Counted from the stretch's first letter, positions 3,496 to 14,668 are shown. The stretch is DNA of 16,510 bases from Nitrospinae bacterium RIFCSPLOWO2_12_FULL_45_22 (GCA_001803565.1 MHDQ01000229.1:1-16510), one strand, 5' to 3'. Numbers and translations: made by a program. Notes: generated by a model not told the origin, from the letters alone.

Positions 3496-4125
3496 CTATC
3501 CTCCATGCTTTATCTTCTTTATAACACTATTCTTTTCATCAATCTCAAAATCTTCAAAAATCGTTGGAACATGACCCTTTAATATTTTTAAAATTTCTAT
3601 CACTACTTTCCTTATTTCCCACTGTGCGGTAGGACTGCTTCTGAGTTCAATTATATGATGCCACTCCCTGAGATTAGCAGTAACTACAATCTGGCTTTTA
3701 ACAGCATTGGGTAGTACAAATCTTGCATCTTCATTTTTAATTCCTAATCTTTGTAATTCTGAGTAACTCCTCTTTGCCTCTTCCATAAATTTAGTAAAAA
3801 GGATATGGGCTTTTGAATTGTTTTTAATAGGATCTGGTTCGACATAATTGAAATTACTTTCATCAACATATCTTTGTGACTGTTGAGTGAATGAGCATAA
3901 TCTATGCCTTACTAATTGATGTGTAAATGCCCTTGATACTCCAGAAATCCTGAATGTAGCATAAGCATGTTCTAATACAGAGTAATGCCCTCTCTTAGTA
4001 AGCATTCGTATAAATTCTTTTTCAGTATTTTCTCCTTGCCTATTAAACGATAAATAAGATGTACGTCCCGCTGTTTCTATTAGTTTCTCTGCATCTGGAG
4101 TGATAAACAATAACTCAACTTTCAT
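3496..4125 (-). CDS. thyX: Flavin-dependent thymidylate synthase ThyX
   Basis: ThyX makes dTMP from dUMP using methylenetetrahydrofolate, FAD and NADPH, independently of ThyA. The diagnostic RHRX7S signature is intact (R73-H74-R75 through S83, in HQLVRHRLCSFTQQSQRY). The conserved EHAYATFRISGVSRAF block precedes it. The later DARFVLPNAVKSQIVVTANLREWHHII and SPTAQWEIR segments carry the flavin- and dUMP-contacting residues. At 209 residues it is compact but complete (family commonly about 210-250). It starts 7 nt after the methyltransferase stop, so it is the last gene of the AT-rich operon rather than a stand-alone housekeeping gene, and its base composition matches that operon. It may serve the cell's thymidylate supply or a DNA/nucleotide chemistry specific to the module. 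Confidence 0.95.
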   Translation of the reverse strand: MKVELLFITPDAEKLIETAGRTSYLSFNRQGENTEKEFIRMLTKRGHYSVLEHAYATFRISGVSRAFTHQLVRHRLCSFTQQSQRYVDESNFNYVEPDPIKNNSKAHILFTKFMEEAKRSYSELQRLGIKNEDARFVLPNAVKSQIVVTANLREWHHIIELRSSPTAQWEIRKVVIEILKILKGHVPTIFEDFEIDEKNSVIKKIKHGG

Positions 4126-4132
4126 TTAATCA

Positions 4133-5395
4133 TCATTTCTTCCGAAATACGGTAATCCATTCTTCTTTAATGATTCCGCCGTTATGATTTCTGTCTGGTG
4201 GTAATGAACGATTTTTGATTTCATCCCTGCTTATTTCTAATAGCTTAAAACCGGTATTTTCCGCTATAGGAGAAAAAATCTTGTATGTTGGAATTTGAAC
4301 CCCGCAGATAGTATTGCTTCCAGTAATTAAGCAAAAATAGCCACCTTTTTTTAGCACATGATAAATCTCTTTGAAAATACTTTTCATATCCTCGAAGTAA
4401 TTATAAACAATGTGGGATTTCTTTCTATCTATTTGCCAAATTTGGTTAAGAATTATATTGAGGAGTCGATATTCACTTTTGGGTATAGCACTGTAGTTAC
4501 TTCCTGAAATATTTTCAGTTCCAATTGCCCGCTTCTTTAGATATCTTACTTCTTCGGGAGTAGCTAATCCCAACCACCATAATTCCAGTTTATAACTCCT
4601 AAAATAATCCTGAGCATTAATATATGGGGGTGATGTGATAATGAAATCAACTTCCTCCATTCTATTTGGTTTCAATGTGGCTAAAGTTTCTCTTGCATCT
4701 CCTTGGAAAACTTTCACATAATTATTATTTTCGGTTAAATGCCATGAAATTGCTTTAATTTTTTCAAAATTTTTAGCAATAGAGTCCTCAAAATATTGTA
4801 TTGGTGTAGGTACCCATCCTGTTTTGACTTTCTCTATAACTCTTTTCGATTTGTATGTTTTTGCCATTCGAGGATCAGCATAAGATGACTTTCTAATTAT
4901 TGAAGAAAAACAAACTAATAAAAACCTATAGAGACTTTCACTAAATCTACCATTGAGACTCTCAATACTAAATTTTATCCTGGATAGTTCATTCCTTGCT
5001 TTTTTGCAGAACCAATAGTCAATATTTGGAAACACTACAGTTAGTTTCCTATTGCTATTTTTTACATCTTCTTTAACTAAACGAATTGCTAAACTGAGTT
5101 CATCTATATCTAATGGCGTGGTTTTCACCTCTGAGATAAGTGTTGCCAATGGGTTAATATCGATACCTATAGCATTTCTGCTCAAAAATCTTGCTTCCAA
5201 AAGTGTTGTTCCCGAGCCACAAAAAGGGTCGAAAATCACGTCCCCTCTTTTGGTATATTTTTCTATAAAATAACGAGGGATGTGAGGAATAAGTTTGGCA
5301 GTATAAGAATGAATTCCATGGGTCAGATAATTTGTAGCAGGAATCTCTTTAAGACTATATAACCGTTGAAAGTCCATTCTTTTTACTTTGCTCAT
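4133..5395 (-). CDS. DNA methyltransferase, N4-cytosine/N6-adenine amino type
   Basis: A 420-residue S-adenosylmethionine-dependent DNA amino-methyltransferase. Motif I DPFCGSGTT (56-64) binds AdoMet, with GIDINPLA (77-84) as the following acidic strand. GDARE (232-236) precedes the catalytic motif IV TSPPY (254-258). The order I then IV, with about 190 residues between, suggests alpha or gamma class with a possible target-recognition region in that gap. SPPY is frequent in N4-cytosine enzymes but does not exclude adenine. The ATG at 5395 overlaps the upstream stop as ATGA and beats a further-upstream in-frame start. No restriction endonuclease is adjacent, so any recognition partner must be the neighbouring ATPase or 330-residue protein. 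A Trm11-like RNA methyltransferase is a less likely alternative. Confidence 0.88.
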   Translation of the reverse strand: MSKVKRMDFQRLYSLKEIPATNYLTHGIHSYTAKLIPHIPRYFIEKYTKRGDVIFDPFCGSGTTLLEARFLSRNAIGIDINPLATLISEVKTTPLDIDELSLAIRLVKEDVKNSNRKLTVVFPNIDYWFCKKARNELSRIKFSIESLNGRFSESLYRFLLVCFSSIIRKSSYADPRMAKTYKSKRVIEKVKTGWVPTPIQYFEDSIAKNFEKIKAISWHLTENNNYVKVFQGDARETLATLKPNRMEEVDFIITSPPYINAQDYFRSYKLELWWLGLATPEEVRYLKKRAIGTENISGSNYSAIPKSEYRLLNIILNQIWQIDRKKSHIVYNYFEDMKSIFKEIYHVLKKGGYFCLITGSNTICGVQIPTYKIFSPIAENTGFKLLEISRDEIKNRSLPPDRNHNGGIIKEEWITVFRKK

Positions 5396-6384
5396 AAAGT
5401 GTTTACCTTGGGTAATGGCAAGAAAAATTGAAAAGTGTTGCCTATACCCCACGAATAGTAGGGAATATTGTGTTCAACGGGTGTAGTGGTAATTATATTA
5501 AGTGGTATCTTTGGATTAGATAGAAGATAAAAGAAAATGCCTATTATCTGTGGCTTTGTGCCAAGAGGTGATATAAATATGTTATATTTTTTAGTTATGG
5601 CATCAGTAATATATTTCTTAAGAACATTACTTGTTTCAACTGGATTGAGTGCAGAAATACTATCTTTAGAAGGTATCTCTTTCAAAAGTAGTTCGTTATA
5701 TTTTTCGCAGTATGTATCCCATGTGGGTATGGAGCCAGGTTTTGTCACGAAAAGCAGATTAACATTTGCATCAAATTTATTAATCAACGACCATGCTCTC
5801 ATCTCCTCGTAACCTAAAATGATTATCAAAAGGTCATCTCTGGTAGAAAACCATTCATTCCAATAGAATGGTAAAATATGAATCCCCTTAATTCCATAAG
5901 ACAATTCACCTTCTTCCGGTGATGCATAATTTTTTGGTATCGTATAAAGCAGTCGTAATTTTTCTACATTAAGAAACTTTCTTATGTAAAATAGGGTATC
6001 TAACAAAAGACTTTTTGTAAAGGTGGTTATATCCATTGTAATCACGAGATTTTTATGCCCCAATAAACTGTTATGTTTACAGTAATTATGAAATTTTAGA
6101 ATGCTTTCAGTACTTTTTCCATGCTCAACGGCAATTGTATAATATTTCTCCTCAAAGGTTTCAATTTTAAAAAGGCTTTGCATTTCTTCAATAAGATTCT
6201 CTCTTTTCTCGTTTGGCTCTGTAAATCTAAACAATACTATCCTCTCTGAAAAGTTAGTTTCACACCTTTGTGGTACCCCCAAACATCTTTCCTCAAAACT
6301 ACCGCATGTTAAAAAAATAGTGTCAGGTACATCTTTTCTAATAGAGAAAATTCTATCAACTCTTTTTGGTTGCAATTCATCCAT
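5392..6384 (-). CDS. Unknown protein with two Rossmann-like halves (possible ligand sensor)
   Basis: I cannot name this 330-residue soluble protein. It appears to be an internal duplication. In the N-half, GSFEERC (28-34) leads to VITMDITTFTK (114-124), LLYTIPKNY (145-153) and ELSYGI (160-165). The C-half repeats the pattern: GYEEMRAW (191-198), FISPLGTKPQ (270-279), NIITTTPVEH (296-305) and YYSWGIG (309-315). Alternating hydrophobic strands with polar loops suggest a Rossmann-like fold. GTKP in the C-half recalls the TGGTK motif of Card1/Can2-type CARF domains, so nucleotide binding is conceivable but unproven. The ATG at 6384 follows the ATPase stop by one base with GGAG nine bases before it. 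A TTG five codons earlier is less likely. It overlaps the methyltransferase start by ATGA. Confidence 0.8.
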   Translation of the reverse strand: MDELQPKRVDRIFSIRKDVPDTIFLTCGSFEERCLGVPQRCETNFSERIVLFRFTEPNEKRENLIEEMQSLFKIETFEEKYYTIAVEHGKSTESILKFHNYCKHNSLLGHKNLVITMDITTFTKSLLLDTLFYIRKFLNVEKLRLLYTIPKNYASPEEGELSYGIKGIHILPFYWNEWFSTRDDLLIIILGYEEMRAWSLINKFDANVNLLFVTKPGSIPTWDTYCEKYNELLLKEIPSKDSISALNPVETSNVLKKYITDAITKKYNIFISPLGTKPQIIGIFFYLLSNPKIPLNIITTTPVEHNIPYYSWGIGNTFQFFLPLPKVNTL

Positions 6385-6385
6385 G

Positions 6386-9205
6386 CTACAAATCTCCAAG
6401 TCTTATCTGAAGGTCATTTCTTAACAATTCTTTCAACTCTGCTAAATTTGTATATTCTATAGCCCATGGTCTTAGATCCGAAATAGGACGCTCAGAACTT
6501 AAGCTGGTATTATGAAGCTGAATGAATTTCTTATCTCTTCCAAATGCAAGACCAAGGCCAAACATCATGGATATGTCATTATAGGTAGTGTCAATGATAC
6601 AAAAAGAGGAGCTTCTGATTGCTTTACACATCTGGCATAAATTAGCCAAAGTTTTTGCAGGGACGTGTACTACAATTTGGTGTTTTTGACTTAGAAGTTC
6701 TCTAATTAGCCTCTCAGTGGTCTTAAAGAAATCTTGATTTTTATCGAAAGGCATGCCTATGAATATCTTGCCTTCTTTTGTTTCGACCTTCATATTTGGA
6801 CAATTGCCTCTAAGCACCCAGCATGATACTTGACGTTCTTTCTTTGTGTTTTCAATTGTAGGCAAAATTTTATCCTGAATAGTTTCAGCTATGCTAGCCG
6901 GACTTAGTTGATACGGCGTATACTCTATCCCTTCCAAAGGCGGGGGAGGAAAATTCGCCTTATGATTGGGTGGGATTTTTTCCTTATAAACCAGCATAAA
7001 GTTTAGTTTATTTAATCCAGTTGCCATTCCCAATTCAAATATTACATTTGGATTAACCTCAGTAATCTCAAAAAGACCAATTGGCATTTGCCTTACGCAA
7101 GAGCAAATTTTACAAAGGATTAGTCCTCCCTTTACCTCAACATCATCAACATCTACACATCGAATCTTAAAATTATCATGCATCGATTCCTTTATCCATC
7201 TCCTAGGATCTTTAACCCAACTTTTTGGGTCAAAAGGGATGGCCAGAAAAGCTTTGGCTTTTATCTCCGATAAAGAATATTTTATTAAATTTTGATTACA
7301 TCCAACACCTGTAACTGGACAATTAGAAAGGTTCAAAGGGATCTTTTTATCATTGAATGGAAAAAGCGAAGTCTGCTTTGTCTGTTTATCTTTCTTACGC
7401 ACAACCCTCTTTCTTTCCTCAATTTGCTTGATAATCTTTTCAAGTGTTTCTGTGCGGTTCTCAGTAGAACATAACCCTTTCAATTCTTCTACCTTAAGCT
7501 CAGTCCGCCAACGCTTTTCGAGTGAGATTCCAAGCAAAGGACTAAAGATCCAATTTAAACTAAAAGATTCCGGCATTGGATATTTCACATCTCTTGGTTT
7601 AAAAGAAACCTCACTAAGAAATACTGGTAAATCTAACCCACTTTCAATAAGTCCTCTCACTATTCTATAGTCTTCATCCTCAAACTTCTCGCTGTCAATT
7701 ATTTCAATTCTATTTGCCTGGGGTTGAGTTGAGAAATGGAGCTTGGCGCGCAAGATACTTCCGATATCAAAAATGAATCGTCCCAATTTTTGCCCATATT
7801 GATTGGTAACATTTTGTGGGATTGTAATTGTAAGTTCTCTCTTGGAAACCTCCCATGCGGCTTTAGATTGAGTATGCACATCTATGGATTGTCCTTCTTC
7901 AATTCTCATTCCATTTTGACGGGCTAATGAAAAAGCCCCACGACATAACCATATAAAAAGTCGTATTATTCCAGACGATAGAGCAACATACTCATCAAAT
8001 CCTGCATACAATTTATCCTTTCCTTTTTGCCTAAGTAACCTATATATTGCTGCATCTCTATAATGTCCTTCAAAATTTTTCCGATACACTTCAGGGTCTT
8101 CGATATTTTTCTTTTTCGTTAAATCATTGCGTATCTTTTTTAATTCTCTTTGGATTTCTTCTTCTGTTAAATCTTCGTATTTCAATGTGAGTGATGGGAG
8201 CAATCTCCCAGGATCTTTTTCCTTATAAAAACTATCATACAGATTTAACCTATTGACAAATATATCTTTTGCGAGGCGCTTATATGGTGCCCGAGTCTCT
8301 CTTGATACATCAAAATGCAGAGGTATTATTTCATAGTCATGTACCTCATCAATTCTTTCTAAAGTTTTAATACCTTTAATCTTTGAGGCAATCCTGAAAA
8401 TCAACCTGCGTTGTTTTATAAGACGATTAATTAGTTTTTGCTGGTAGGTATCTAAATCTTCATACTCATCAATTAAAACGAACAAAACCTTTTCACTCAA
8501 AATTTCTATTTCATTTCGGATAATATTGAAAAGTTCTAATATAAAATCAGGGGTGTTAGTAAAATGTAGGTTTTCTCTAAACTTAGAAAAATCCTTTTCA
8601 TAGGGAAACAATTTTACAAAATTTTGAATTTCCTTTATTTCACTATCTAATGAATTAAAGATCTCAGAAAAAGTGTGGCCCCTTAGTATTGCAGTTCTTC
8701 CAGCAATTTTGAGCCAGATTTTTGCTTTTTTCTCTTTTGGGATATCTGAAAAATTGATGCAGAAAAACCGGGTTGCATCCAAAATTGCTCTGCCTATTTG
8801 CAAGTTAAATAAATGCTCAAAAATGGGATTAAGCTGATCAATTGAAAGAAACGATATATTCTCGGTTGAAAGAGGAAAAAAACAATCTGATTTGACATAG
8901 ACACCAAAATATCCTCTATTATAGTCTCTCATGATCAATTCTTTCTTATTTAATTTTCTTCTTATATCGTTAATTACGGATTGGACTGATAACATTCTAA
9001 GAATATGTGATTTTCCACAGCCTCTTCCACCCATTATTATTAGTGCTTTCGTAATACTTGGATCTTCTAATTTGTCCATAAATCCTGGAGGAGCAAAACA
9101 GCTAACCAATTCTTTATAATTCGCTGGAAATTCTTCCACTCTCCAGTCTTCTAATCGATCTTTGGCAAAAGGGTTTTGCCAGGCAATCTTATTATTGTTG
9201 ATCAT
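6386..9205 (-). CDS. ORC/AAA-like ATPase fused to two TIR/deoxyribosyltransferase-like domains
   Basis: A 939-residue multidomain protein, first in the AT-rich operon, with a strong GGAGG site seven bases before its ATG. The N-terminal P-loop ATPase has Walker A GGRGCGKSH (59-67, Lys65) and Walker B LFVLIDEYEDL (241-251, Asp246-Glu247), resembling ORC/Cdc6- or KAP-type STAND switches. A helical, charged middle (about 300-620) follows. Two related C-terminal Rossmannoid domains come next. Copy one runs from AFLAIPFDP (652-660) through LCKICSC (697-703) to NPNVIFELGMATG (718-730). Copy two runs from IFIGMPFDK (814-822) through LCQMCKA (856-862) to FGLGLAFG (882-889). The NPNV-x-x-ELG pattern belongs to nucleoside deoxyribosyltransferase/TIR-like enzymes, and Glu724 would be catalytic. 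Copy two has Gly883 there, so it is probably inactive. A defence role with nucleotide hydrolysis as output is inference. Confidence 0.85.
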   Translation of the reverse strand: MINNNKIAWQNPFAKDRLEDWRVEEFPANYKELVSCFAPPGFMDKLEDPSITKALIIMGGRGCGKSHILRMLSVQSVINDIRRKLNKKELIMRDYNRGYFGVYVKSDCFFPLSTENISFLSIDQLNPIFEHLFNLQIGRAILDATRFFCINFSDIPKEKKAKIWLKIAGRTAILRGHTFSEIFNSLDSEIKEIQNFVKLFPYEKDFSKFRENLHFTNTPDFILELFNIIRNEIEILSEKVLFVLIDEYEDLDTYQQKLINRLIKQRRLIFRIASKIKGIKTLERIDEVHDYEIIPLHFDVSRETRAPYKRLAKDIFVNRLNLYDSFYKEKDPGRLLPSLTLKYEDLTEEEIQRELKKIRNDLTKKKNIEDPEVYRKNFEGHYRDAAIYRLLRQKGKDKLYAGFDEYVALSSGIIRLFIWLCRGAFSLARQNGMRIEEGQSIDVHTQSKAAWEVSKRELTITIPQNVTNQYGQKLGRFIFDIGSILRAKLHFSTQPQANRIEIIDSEKFEDEDYRIVRGLIESGLDLPVFLSEVSFKPRDVKYPMPESFSLNWIFSPLLGISLEKRWRTELKVEELKGLCSTENRTETLEKIIKQIEERKRVVRKKDKQTKQTSLFPFNDKKIPLNLSNCPVTGVGCNQNLIKYSLSEIKAKAFLAIPFDPKSWVKDPRRWIKESMHDNFKIRCVDVDDVEVKGGLILCKICSCVRQMPIGLFEITEVNPNVIFELGMATGLNKLNFMLVYKEKIPPNHKANFPPPPLEGIEYTPYQLSPASIAETIQDKILPTIENTKKERQVSCWVLRGNCPNMKVETKEGKIFIGMPFDKNQDFFKTTERLIRELLSQKHQIVVHVPAKTLANLCQMCKAIRSSSFCIIDTTYNDISMMFGLGLAFGRDKKFIQLHNTSLSSERPISDLRPWAIEYTNLAELKELLRNDLQIRLGDL

Positions 9206-9271
9206 ACCTACACCTCCATTATTCCATTAACCATATGCGCCACAAACAATTCTTCTTTAATCGGGGGCCTT

Positions 9272-9475
9272 GCAAAGATTTTGTAATTGTTTAGTCAATA
9301 TTAGGATTTTAACCACGGATGGACACAGATAGCGTAAAGCTTAAAGCGCAAAGTGCAAAACTAAGGAATAAATTACCTCAGCTTTAATCTTTACACTCTA
9401 CGCTTTGGTCATCCGTGTGTATCCGTGGCAAATATTATAAGGCTTTATTTGGCTAAACTATTACAAGATTTTTTA
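9272..9475. repeat. ~200-bp long imperfect palindrome (MITE-like)
   Basis: Arms of about 60 bp face each other across a centre near 9373. CCACGGAT (9313-9320) pairs with ATCCGTGG (9421-9428), and ACACAGAT (9323-9330) with ATCCGTGT (9411-9418, one mismatch). AGCGTA (9331-9336) pairs with TACGCT (9399-9404). The outer GACTAAACAATTACAA (minus strand, 9280-9295) matches GGCTAAACTATTACAA (9451-9466) with two mismatches. It fills the gap between the ThiC/BzaF stop and the ATPase operon. It touches the stop codon and could act as a transcriptional barrier. No transposase is present. Confidence 0.75.
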
Positions 9476-12108: not shown

Positions 12109-12603
12109 TTATCTGAGTAATACCAGGCCAAAAAAATCCCTGGACTTATCCTTTTCTGCCACGAACCTACCTTCCCAACCACAACGCCTTACCGTGCTAA
12201 ACACATCTATCCCCGTGGCTTCCATAGAAGGCCGGGCCTGGGTAGGGTGTTGGCAGGGGCGGCTAGTATCACAAGACTCACATAGCCGGCAGGGACCAGA
12301 GCCCAGTCCAAAGGCTTTAACAAAACCGCGGTTAAGGAAGGCCCTTTCCAATTCTGTAGCTAGATACCGGATTAACCAGCTACTGTCAGCCCGGAAGAGC
12401 AATGCCTCATTATAATCTCTTAATATAAGCCTCATCTCTTCGAGAGAAGGGGAGAAAGGTGGGCAGACCAGGCAATTGTTGTAATAAGGACAGCCATATT
12501 TACATTTTAGAAATACCCAGGGGGCAGTCACAATGTTTCTGACAGCAATCACCTGGGCATCGTGACAACCAAGATGCCGGGCCAGTTGCTCTAAATCTTC
12601 CAT
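12109..12603 (-). CDS. DUF2284-family predicted metal/iron-sulfur protein
   Basis: A 164-residue cysteine-rich protein of the DUF2284 type. The N-terminal cluster is KCKYGCPYYNNCLVCPP (Cys34, 38, 44, 47). The C-terminal cluster is GPCRLCESCDTSRPC (Cys105, 108, 111, 117; CX2CX2CX5C), ferredoxin-like and probably binding a 4Fe-4S centre, followed by Cys141. The family function is unknown; members often sit beside sulfur-relay or anaerobic oxidoreductase genes, as here beside TusA and DsrE genes. I chose the ATG at 12603 (MEDLEQLARHLGC). A TTG 18 codons earlier would run through a heptamer repeat and gives a low-complexity leader. Neither start has a good ribosome site, so the start is less sure than the family. 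Confidence 0.82.
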   Translation of the reverse strand: MEDLEQLARHLGCHDAQVIAVRNIVTAPWVFLKCKYGCPYYNNCLVCPPFSPSLEEMRLILRDYNEALLFRADSSWLIRYLATELERAFLNRGFVKAFGLGSGPCRLCESCDTSRPCQHPTQARPSMEATGIDVFSTVRRCGWEGRFVAEKDKSRDFFGLVLLR

Positions 12604-12607
12604 CTGC

Positions 12608-12657
12608 GGGTTATGGGTTACGGGTTGCGGGTTAAGGGTTAAACTCGCAACTCGCAA
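12608..12657. repeat. Tandem heptamer repeat upstream of the DUF2284 start
   Basis: Five consecutive heptamers GGGTTAT, GGGTTAC, GGGTTGC, GGGTTAA, GGGTTAA fill 12608-12642. Two CTCGCAA units follow at 12644-12657. The block directly abuts the chosen start codon and occupies the position where a ribosome-binding site would be. Confidence 0.75.
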
Positions 12658-12678
12658 CTATTATTTTACTTATTATCG

Positions 12679-12918
12679 CTATTCTTTCTGGATGATTATT
12701 TCCCAATCAGAGCCATTTATAGGGGCTACTTTTAATACCTTATTCCCTTCATGTTCCATACTTCGAGGTACATTCTTGGTAGCAGGTAAATAATTAACGA
12801 TAACACGCAATATAGACCCCGAGGCCATCTCTTCTATGGCCAGTTTGGACTTTACAAAGGTATAGGGGCAGACCTCTCCTTTAAGGTCAAGCTCTTTATC
12901 AATCACCAGGTTCTCCAC
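12679..12918 (-). CDS. TusA/SirA-family sulfur carrier protein
   Basis: A 79-residue TusA-like protein that carries sulfur as a persulfide on a conserved cysteine. The motif DLKGEVCPYTFVKSKLAIEE places the carrier at Cys17 in a CPYT loop, the variant lacking the second proline of classical CPxP. A helix and a strand end (GSDWEIIIQKE) complete the beta-alpha-beta-alpha-beta-beta fold. I chose the GTG at 12918, preceded by AGGAG four bases upstream. The longer reading to 12951 would translate the neighbouring CACAAAG repeat. The DsrE/Tus-like genes at 13184-13858 on the same strand fit a TusA relay. The acceptor is not identified. Confidence 0.88.
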   Translation of the reverse strand: MENLVIDKELDLKGEVCPYTFVKSKLAIEEMASGSILRVIVNYLPATKNVPRSMEHEGNKVLKVAPINGSDWEIIIQKE

Positions 12919-12947
12919 AATTCTCCTCTCTGTTCTTAAATTTGTTA

Positions 12948-13170
12948 CCACAAAGACACAAAGAACACAAAGAATTTAATTAACAATCCTTCGGATGCCA
13001 TCCTTAAGAACTGGAACATTAAAATTGATGAGCAACCCAAGCCACAAATCAGAAAGTTTAAGATATGTCAGAAGTTGCGCTTCATGTAGATGTACCTCTA
13101 TCGCCGAACCAATTATAAGATTTGATAACTCATCGCTTTTCTTAGTGCACTTTGTGGCTTTGTGGTTCAT
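12948..13170. repeat. CACAAAG inverted repeat flanking the GxxExxY remnant
   Basis: CCACAAAGACACAAAG (12948-12963) and CTTTGTGGCTTTGTGG (13150-13165) are inverted copies with 15 of 16 matches. They enclose the short GxxExxY remnant; the right copy overlaps its first codons. Together they look like a small cassette inserted between the DsrE and TusA genes. Confidence 0.6.
12976..13170 (-). pseudogene. GxxExxY (PDDEXK_3-like) protein, internally deleted
   Basis: The 64-residue frame joins two ends of a GxxExxY-family protein. The N-terminal IIGSAIEVH (19-27) is the start of the family signature. It is followed at once by [23 protein letters not shown] (29-51) and [13 protein letters not shown], the family's C-terminus. 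Intact members are about 120-130 residues. The missing centre contains the ExxY end of the signature and the PD-(D/E)xK nuclease-like residues. The frame is open, so the deletion was in-frame, but the product should have no catalytic core. It splits the DsrE and TusA genes and is bracketed by CACAAAG inverted repeats, which suggests insertion of a mobile cassette and later decay. Confidence 0.75.
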
Positions 13171-13183
13171 CTTATCTTAATTC

Positions 13184-13543
13184 CTAATAAGAAATGACTA
13201 TGTGGCTTTGGGCCAGCAGTCCGGCAATCTCTGCCCGGGTCTTTATCTCTACTGGAAGCGATAATTGCCCTAATCCTCGCTCCTCTAAAGATTCTCTTTC
13301 TACCACCAATGGACAATCCAGACTTTGCAAAGTCTCGATGTGTCGGGCCAACGGGGCTGAGCCAATAGCCTCTGGTGAGGTCTTCAGCAAGGTATATACC
13401 CCATCCTCCAAAAAAATTACCTGCACCTTATCATCCCTTAAGGTAAGCCCCAGGCTCATCCGCAGGGCATCGGCGTTCCTTACGGTATCAAAGGGTGCCT
13501 TTCTAAGGAGTACTGATATAGTTTTTTCTGCGTCTCGGGCCAT
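13184..13543 (-). CDS. DsrE/DsrF (TusC-like) family protein
   Basis: A 119-residue DsrE/F-fold protein. The pattern [26 protein letters not shown] (8-33) then [15 protein letters not shown] (40-54) is the first half of the fold, typical of TusC/DsrF. It lacks an obvious catalytic cysteine (only Cys77), as TusC-type subunits do, while the partner at 13547-13858 keeps one. The two genes are separated by 3 nt, so the products probably form a hetero-oligomer in the cytoplasm that passes sulfur to or from the TusA-like protein. Called by fold and context; exact orthology to TusC or DsrF is not established. Confidence 0.82.
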
Positions 13544-13546
13544 GGG

Positions 13547-13858
13547 TCAATTCAAGCTTATGAATCTATCGCATTCATGAGCGATACAGGCCAGGTCATA
13601 TTGACTGCCAAAGACTACTCCTTCCCTCTCCTCGCTAATGGCTCGCTCCTGGGCATTAAAATCACAGAGGGTTATATTAGCCCCTTTTTCGCGCAAGGCT
13701 ATAAACCCCTTATGATAGATATTATAAACCCCATCGCACATCAGGAAGATATGGACTTCTCTTGCTGTAGCCAGGGCTGCTTCTGCTAAGCGGATGCAAG
13801 TATAGGTATTTTCGTTTTCTGGGCTGGTAGTTAATAAGATACCTAGTTTTTGCGCCAT
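13547..13858 (-). CDS. DsrE (TusD-like) family sulfurtransferase subunit
   Basis: A 103-residue DsrE-fold protein. LGILLTTSPENENTYTCIRLAEAAL (5-29) and VHIFLMCDGVYN (35-46) form the core. ITLCDFNAQERAI (62-74) places Cys65 where TusD/DsrE proteins carry the persulfide-forming cysteine. Other cysteines are at 21, 41, 91 and 96. The start ATG abuts the TAG stop of the MoeB-like gene (TAGATG), and the stop is 3 nt before the TusC-like gene, so all three are translationally coupled. The likely role is to accept or donate sulfur with the TusA-like carrier. The direction of transfer is unknown. Confidence 0.84.
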   Translation of the reverse strand: MAQKLGILLTTSPENENTYTCIRLAEAALATAREVHIFLMCDGVYNIYHKGFIALREKGANITLCDFNAQERAISEEREGVVFGSQYDLACIAHECDRFISLN

Positions 13859-14668
13859 CTAACGAGCCCCTAAGGTACAGAATTGTTCGTAATCAATCAG
13901 CTCTGTAATGGTCGGATTGATGCCACAGAGCGGGCAATGGTTATCCTTTTTCAGCCTTACCCCTCTGAAGTCCATGCTTAAGGCATCAAAAAGCAACAAC
14001 CTGCCTACCAGGGGCTCGCCCTTTCCCAGGATAAGCTTTATCGTCTCGATAGCTTGAATAGTGCCGATAATCCCTGGTAATACGCCTAAAACACCGGCTT
14101 CCTGACAGCTAGGCACCATATCGGCTGGTGGTGGTTCCGGGTAGAGGCAGCGATAACATGGCCCCTCAGGGGGTTTAAATACCGTGGCCTGCCCTTCAAA
14201 CCGAAATATACTACCATGGACATTGGGCTTGCCTAGCATTACACAGGCATCATTGATCAGGTAACGGGTAGGGAAATTATCACTACCATCTACTATTATG
14301 TCATAGCCCGCAAAGAGCGATAGAATATTGTCAGTAGTAAGCCTTTCGGGATAAGTATTGACCGTTACATCAGGATTCAGGGAGACCATAGTCTCTTTAG
14401 CAGAGTCTACCTTGAGCCGGCCTATATCGCTGGTATTATGCAGGATCTGCCGCTGCAAATTACTCAGTTCCACTACATCGGAGTCTATGATACCAATAGT
14501 CCCTATGCCTGCGGCGGCTAAATAATAGGCACAGGGCGACCCTAAACCGCCAGCACCGACCAGTAGTACCTTTGCTTCCAGGAGCTTCTGCTGTCCACTA
14601 CCACCTACTTCTTTAAGGATAATATGACGACTGTAGCGCCGGATCTGCTCTTCACTGAATTTATGCAT
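13859..14668 (-). CDS. MoeB/ThiF/HesA-family adenylyltransferase
   Basis: A 269-residue E1-like enzyme that adenylates the C-terminal glycine of ubiquitin-like sulfur carriers (MoaD, ThiS). Features: nucleotide loop GAGGLG (38-43), NLQRQILH (70-77), DGSDNF with Asp130, HGSIFRFEGQ (151-160), and the zinc site CYRC (Cys171/174) with CPLC (Cys245/248). Cys188 is in PSCQEAGVLG, the position of the MoeB/ThiF active cysteine. There is no C-terminal rhodanese domain, so it is MoeB/HesA length. It heads the sulfur operon behind a consensus minus-strand promoter and an AAGGTGAG site. Its usual partner, a small protein ending in Gly-Gly, is not in this window, so the substrate is open. Confidence 0.92.
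   Translation of the reverse strand: MHKFSEEQIRRYSRHIILKEVGGSGQQKLLEAKVLLVGAGGLGSPCAYYLAAAGIGTIGIIDSDVVELSNLQRQILHNTSDIGRLKVDSAKETMVSLNPDVTVNTYPERLTTDNILSLFAGYDIIVDGSDNFPTRYLINDACVMLGKPNVHGSIFRFEGQATVFKPPEGPCYRCLYPEPPPADMVPSCQEAGVLGVLPGIIGTIQAIETIKLILGKGEPLVGRLLLFDALSMDFRGVRLKKDNHCPLCGINPTITELIDYEQFCTLGAR

Follow-up and report, generated by a model that had tools for sequence, protein, structure and literature searches.

A four-gene operon in the 16,510-nucleotide stretch analysed here (the window; positions are counted from its first letter), which comes from Nitrospinae bacterium RIFCSPLOWO2_12_FULL_45_22, is probably an anti-virus defence system, judging by the relatives of its genes. By sequence comparison its core, an ORC-CDC6-like ATPase and a CARF6-family protein, together with its methyltransferase and its thymidylate synthase ThyX, is homologous to a recurrent system with an interchangeable effector slot. 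On the same evidence the slot is occupied here by a tandem TIR/NDT-like domain at the C-terminus of the ATPase.

The operon and its predicted proteins

The four genes form one operon on the minus strand. Gene 1 (6386..9205, 939 aa) encodes the ORC-CDC6-like ATPase with its C-terminal tandem TIR/NDT-like domains, gene 2 (5392..6384, 330 aa) the predicted CARF/SAVED-type sensor of the CARF6 family, gene 3 (4133..5395, 420 aa) the DNA methyltransferase, and gene 4 (3496..4125, 209 aa) the FAD-dependent ThyX. Genes 1 and 2 are spaced by +1 nt, genes 2 and 3 by an ATGA overlap and genes 3 and 4 by 7 nt; these couplings, claimed in the original prediction, were confirmed from the coordinates. The start of gene 3 was taken as the ATG within the overlap and not the GTG at 5452. 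The ribosome-binding site claimed ahead of the operon is GGAGG (9213..9217, minus strand), which lies 7 nt upstream of the ATG that starts gene 1. The module is AT-rich as described, with a GC content of 0.31–0.37 against 0.43–0.52 outside it, and this difference from the flanks fits horizontal acquisition. No repeats flanking the module were detected with a repeat finder.

Gene 1 and thiC are separated by a long imperfect palindrome (window 9305–9435) with CCACGGATACACACGGAT at one end and an inverted copy of it at the opposite end. Its DNA fold has a free energy of −26 kcal/mol (z −6.7, 0/200 shuffles), and it looks similar to a MITE-like or mobile hairpin. Small sulfur-relay-type genes (TusA-like, DsrE-like and ThiF/MoeB-like, assigned by eye from the ORF list) are clustered on the far side of thiC at 12109–14668.

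The ATPase part of gene 1 (residues 31–565; 7511..9115, minus strand) matched Pfam PF24389 (ORC-CDC6-like) with E=3e-58 and 198 bits at a cut-off of 27. Both Walker motifs are intact, the Walker A GGRGCGKS at residues 59–66 (K65) and the Walker B-like VLIDEYED at 243–250 (D246, E247), and K65 and D246 are invariant in the ATPase alignment; the P-loop ATPase with Walker A Lys65 had been called correctly. The ATPase and CARF parts share about 20–33% identity with their relatives.

The last ~315 residues of gene 1 consist of two repeats related to each other at E=2e-8 in a two-sequence set. The first (residues ~625–787; 6845..7333, minus strand) carries NPNVIFELG at residues 718–726, with the candidate catalytic Glu724, as well as a C-x6-C and a CxxC pair. 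In the second (residues 790–939; 6389..6838, minus strand), which is probably inactive, MMFGLG replaces IFELG and the position of Glu724 is a glycine. The glutamate of this PNVxxELG-type motif is also present in two relatives from other genomes, L124 (VFEL) and L067 (VVELG). Each repeat of gene 1 has a cysteine pair near its start and a CxxC, and the four cysteines are invariant in a four-row alignment of both gene 1 repeats, L124 and L067; from this pattern they are a possible metal site.

Similarity of the repeat to CAP12-PCTIR_TIR (PF10137) is weak, centres on NPNVIFELG and lies below the cut-off (E=0.005; 17.3 bits against 24.7). The best matches in the PDB were all nucleoside 2-deoxyribosyltransferases (NDT), at only E=0.13, and phmmer found no convincing PDB-sequence relatives of the C-terminal part. 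Stand-alone relatives (same profile) matched either a TIR or an NDT Pfam model, always below cut-off, and the label TIR/NDT-like is therefore apt. No relative of the C-terminal domain was encoded on any plasmid searched with tblastn. No Pfam cut-off is reached by the TIR-like domain, and AlphaFold modelled its first repeat with a pLDDT of 37, so that its putative catalytic activity and substrate are read from motifs. The NDT/TIR-like fusion with Glu724 had been predicted, and that domain call was broadly right.

Ten PADLOC CARF6 models matched gene 2 (best PDLC01911, E=2.4e-36) and no Pfam family did; phmmer found no convincing PDB-sequence relatives. The AlphaFold model was usable for residues ~95–330, the N-terminal ~95 residues being poor. 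It aligned with the CARF domains of Csm6, Can1, Cam1 and Card1 at Z 9–11 (Csm6 11.1, Can1 10.2) and with the two-lobed SAVED domain of Cap5 at Z 8.5 over ~194 residues. Gene 2 is thus a predicted sensor with, on the model, a CARF/SAVED-type fold, and we infer that it binds a nucleotide. It had been described as a paired Rossmann protein and a possible sensor; the CARF6 profile and the model support the second description and supersede the generic Rossmann label. No ligand synthase was found among the operon's four genes.

Gene 3 matched PF01555 (N6_N4_Mtase) with E=1.2e-24 and carries DPFCGSGTT followed by TSPPY; it is a DNA methyltransferase of the N4/N6 type. It shares 31% full-length identity with the methyltransferases of Sinorhizobium ORC-CARF loci and matched that of locus L089 with E=5e-66. 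Gene 4 is a canonical ThyX with the RHRxxSxxxxSxR motif (PF02511, Thy1, E=1.6e-65; TIGR02170, E=1.2e-54). Both genes had been named correctly from the sequence.

Recurrence of the core and its exchangeable effectors

The original prediction proposed searching for the gene set in unrelated genomes, and there the set recurred. About 1,700 genomes, one per species and picked by taxonomy and not by context (~290 spread over the domain and, for five further phyla, sets that were either complete or evenly drawn), were searched with PF24389, and 34 loci, detected by this model only, were examined in context. Matches of Walker A length (near 1e-4) were discarded as generic P-loop noise. A CARF6 gene was directly downstream of the ATPase or fused to it in 30 of the 34 loci and one gene away in L067, giving 31/34; the three loci lacking it (L088, L094 and L127) were the weakest by an iterated ATPase profile. 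Two further loci came from viral contigs and 15 from species genomes. The ATPase and CARF pair occurs in many phyla, and some members are carried by conjugative plasmids or prophage contigs. Searches of viral and genome contigs with single proteins and single patterns found no close relatives.

A methyltransferase of some class lay within 3.5 kb at 18/34 sampled loci and 22/25 other ORC loci, counts that are lower bounds because some loci end at a contig edge. ThyX was present within 5 kb at 6/59 loci and dUTPase at 5/59. A crude model, which assumes one ThyX for every 4 Mb genome and treats the loci as independent, predicts 0.18 for ThyX (P about 3e-8); the figure is rough, since several of the loci are related rhizobial plasmids. 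Neither methyltransferase nor ThyX is universal among members of the core, and ThyX is absent from most.

Across the loci the effector slot holds PRTase-CE, HD-CE, calcineurin-like, Pkinase, SIR2_2 or TIR/NDT-like domains, and the searches of plasmid and phage collections recovered the PRTase-CE or HD-CE versions. The ORC-CDC6-like/PRTase-CE conflict systems (PF24389, PF24390) have a homologous ATPase and CARF6 protein in the same order as here, a methyltransferase of the class of gene 3 and, in the Sinorhizobium plasmid members L004 and L011, ThyX (gene order ThyX-methyltransferase-PRTase-ORC-CARF). In L007 and L010 (Moraxella and an Acinetobacter record) the order is dUTPase-PRTase-ORC-CARF-methyltransferase. 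The present operon differs in having no PRTase-CE or HD-CE gene beside the ATPase and in carrying its effector as the C-terminal fusion. The HD-CE (PF24391; L009, L085, L086) and calcineurin (PF24408-containing; L066, L090) versions share the ORC-CARF6 core and a methyltransferase, but the latter is of the C5 or Dam type and a separate HD or phosphoesterase gene stands ahead of the ATPase; Yoonia L009 has a C5 methyltransferase-HD-ORC-CARF set, and one calcineurin-like locus includes wHTH-Calcineurin_assc. The PADLOC CARF6 type CARF_STK_AAA has the same core and methyltransferase type, with ThyX in L064, but its effector is a protein kinase fused at the ATPase N-terminus, and L065 and L092 have the CARF part in the fusion too.

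Among these loci were several irregular forms. In L021 (3507–5228) and L024 (11585–13321) an N6-type methyltransferase is followed by another ORC-like ATPase, shorter than the first (573 and 578 aa, respectively). L006 (2465–8654), a Rhizobium plasmid locus, is apparently decaying: its genes for the system's ThyX, methyltransferase and ATPase are each split between frames. L103 (G1065 C1:1816162-1817004), from a genome that belongs to the genus of the L124 genome, is what remains of an ORC-CDC6-like gene and is interrupted by six in-frame stops.

The TIR/NDT fusion had one clear counterpart among the sampled loci, L124, which is from another phylum. Its ATPase has two C-terminal repeats, the first with the VFEL motif and the second degenerate, with CARF6 downstream and a PF01555 methyltransferase upstream. 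Its alignment with gene 1 spans nearly the full length at 21% identity (E=2e-22), rising to 36% over 99 aa in the first repeat; the CARF protein of L124 shares 33% identity with gene 2 over 201 aa. In L067, from a third genome, the TIR-like domain is a separate gene sited between ATPase and CARF. Effector type was strongly clustered on a CARF6 tree (11 changes against 25.6 when shuffled, 0/200). Gene 2 grouped with L067, L124 and the SIR2-ORC fusion L063 with moderate support (91/91) and long branches. Like the present operon, L063 has an NAD-acting-type domain on the same ATPase, but the SIR2 is at the N-terminus, and a DUF6884 protein is found and no methyltransferase. The placement of two NAD-acting-type effectors on one CARF branch is suggestive. 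Standing in for a methyltransferase in L063 are the DUF6884 protein upstream (8295–8762) and an unannotated 396-aa protein downstream (3558–4748), which possibly represent another kind of DNA modification.

Proposed action and alternative readings

With moderate confidence the operon is read as a conflict (anti-invader) system of the ORC-CDC6-like/CARF6 type whose effector is TIR/NDT-like. The gene 1 product, probably oligomeric, would together with the CARF/SAVED protein detect an invader through DNA and/or a nucleotide ligand. ATP-dependent switching would then free the first TIR/NDT-like domain (Glu724), which would cut N-glycosidic bonds in NAD+ or nucleotides and stop the cell, and the second repeat may act as a catalytically dead regulator or a dimerisation unit. 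The methyltransferase would mark host DNA as self, and ThyX might keep up the dTMP supply or buffer the deoxynucleotide pool being sensed or attacked. The defence logic itself, an ATPase switch with a sensor, a nucleotide-acting effector and a self-marking methylase, had been proposed from the sequence and is strengthened by the recurrence, the exchangeable toxic-type effectors and the frequent methyltransferase; the steps of the mechanism are ones that we infer.

In a less likely version of the same defence system, the TIR/NDT-like domain would produce a signalling molecule, an ADP-ribose derivative or another nucleotide, for the CARF/SAVED protein to bind, along Thoeris-like lines, with killing exerted elsewhere, for example through DNA action driven by the ATPase. 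Signal makers as well as NADases are known in the TIR/DrHyd class (PMC9503650), and gene 2, with its predicted nucleotide-sensor fold, is encoded in the same operon; yet the slot is occupied in related loci by kinases, calcineurin-like and HD proteins, which do not make signals of this sort, and the operon has no gene for a separate effector.

Resemblance to the TIR effectors of CBASS and Pycsar (CAP12/PCTIR, PF10137) is limited to the weak likeness around NPNVIFELG and the predicted SAVED-type sensing fold of gene 2; here there is no cyclase gene, sensor and TIR are on separate proteins and an ATPase is present. CBASS was rejected, a CD-NTase not being among the four genes. Because the ATPase has CARF6 partners across phyla, a type III CRISPR accessory role was not adopted as the main reading.

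It is improbable that the operon is a modification system with no abortive effector, in which methyltransferase and ATPase would act on unmodified DNA in the manner of BREX or restriction-modification and the TIR/NDT-like repeats would merely bind nucleotides. ORC/Cdc6-type ATPases do scaffold BREX (PMC12839542), several methyltransferase classes accompany the core, and the second repeat has no Glu. Against this, the NPNVxFELG motif is kept in the first repeat, the operon encodes no PglZ, BrxB, helicase or nuclease, and no methyltransferase was found in some members, so that this enzyme may not belong to the core. BREX proper shares an ORC/Cdc6-class ATPase and a DNA methyltransferase with the operon, but was rejected since PglZ and BrxB/BrxA are missing from the four genes, which have instead a CARF sensor and a TIR-like effector.

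It is very improbable that the genes serve not defence but metabolism or stability, as a cassette gained by horizontal transfer for thymidylate synthesis, nucleotide salvage or methylation: ThyX is a housekeeping-type enzyme, but it is missing from most members of the core, whose effectors are typical conflict domains (SIR2, TIR, HD, kinase) and which are located on plasmids and in prophage contigs.

A narrower form of the anti-invader reading is offered as speculation, with little weight attached to it. A CARF/SAVED sensor outside CRISPR and CBASS would be a nucleotide-pool checkpoint, the travelling ThyX and dUTPase genes would tie its trigger to a dUTP/dTTP balance disturbed by phage, and the ORC-like ATPase would switch the fused, cysteine-bearing TIR/NDT-like domain, which would act as an N-glycosidase on deoxynucleotides or NAD+.

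Standing and meaning of the system

The original prediction did not recognise the set as a named system. The families are catalogued in Pfam (ORC-CDC6-like, PRTase-CE, HD-CE, wHTH-Calcineurin_assc) and in PADLOC (CARF6, including CARF_STK_AAA), so that this kind of system is already known from computation and the claim holds only in part; the effector variant may be new. No description of the TIR-fused form was found in a literature search, which did not reach two 2020 papers (Burroughs and Aravind; Makarova et al.) that are said to define these families. The effector form seen here, with two TIR/NDT-like domains at the C-terminal end of the ATPase, is uncommon.

The analysis assigns an operon that had no annotation to a group of predicted defence systems that is both widespread and little studied. 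The comparison presents this group as one fixed core, the ORC-like ATPase with a CARF6 sensor, combined with effectors of at least six types that can replace one another. The recurrent link to ThyX and dUTPase suggests a connection to deoxynucleotide pools, and the TIR-fused form offers a compact version for probing what a non-CRISPR CARF protein senses.
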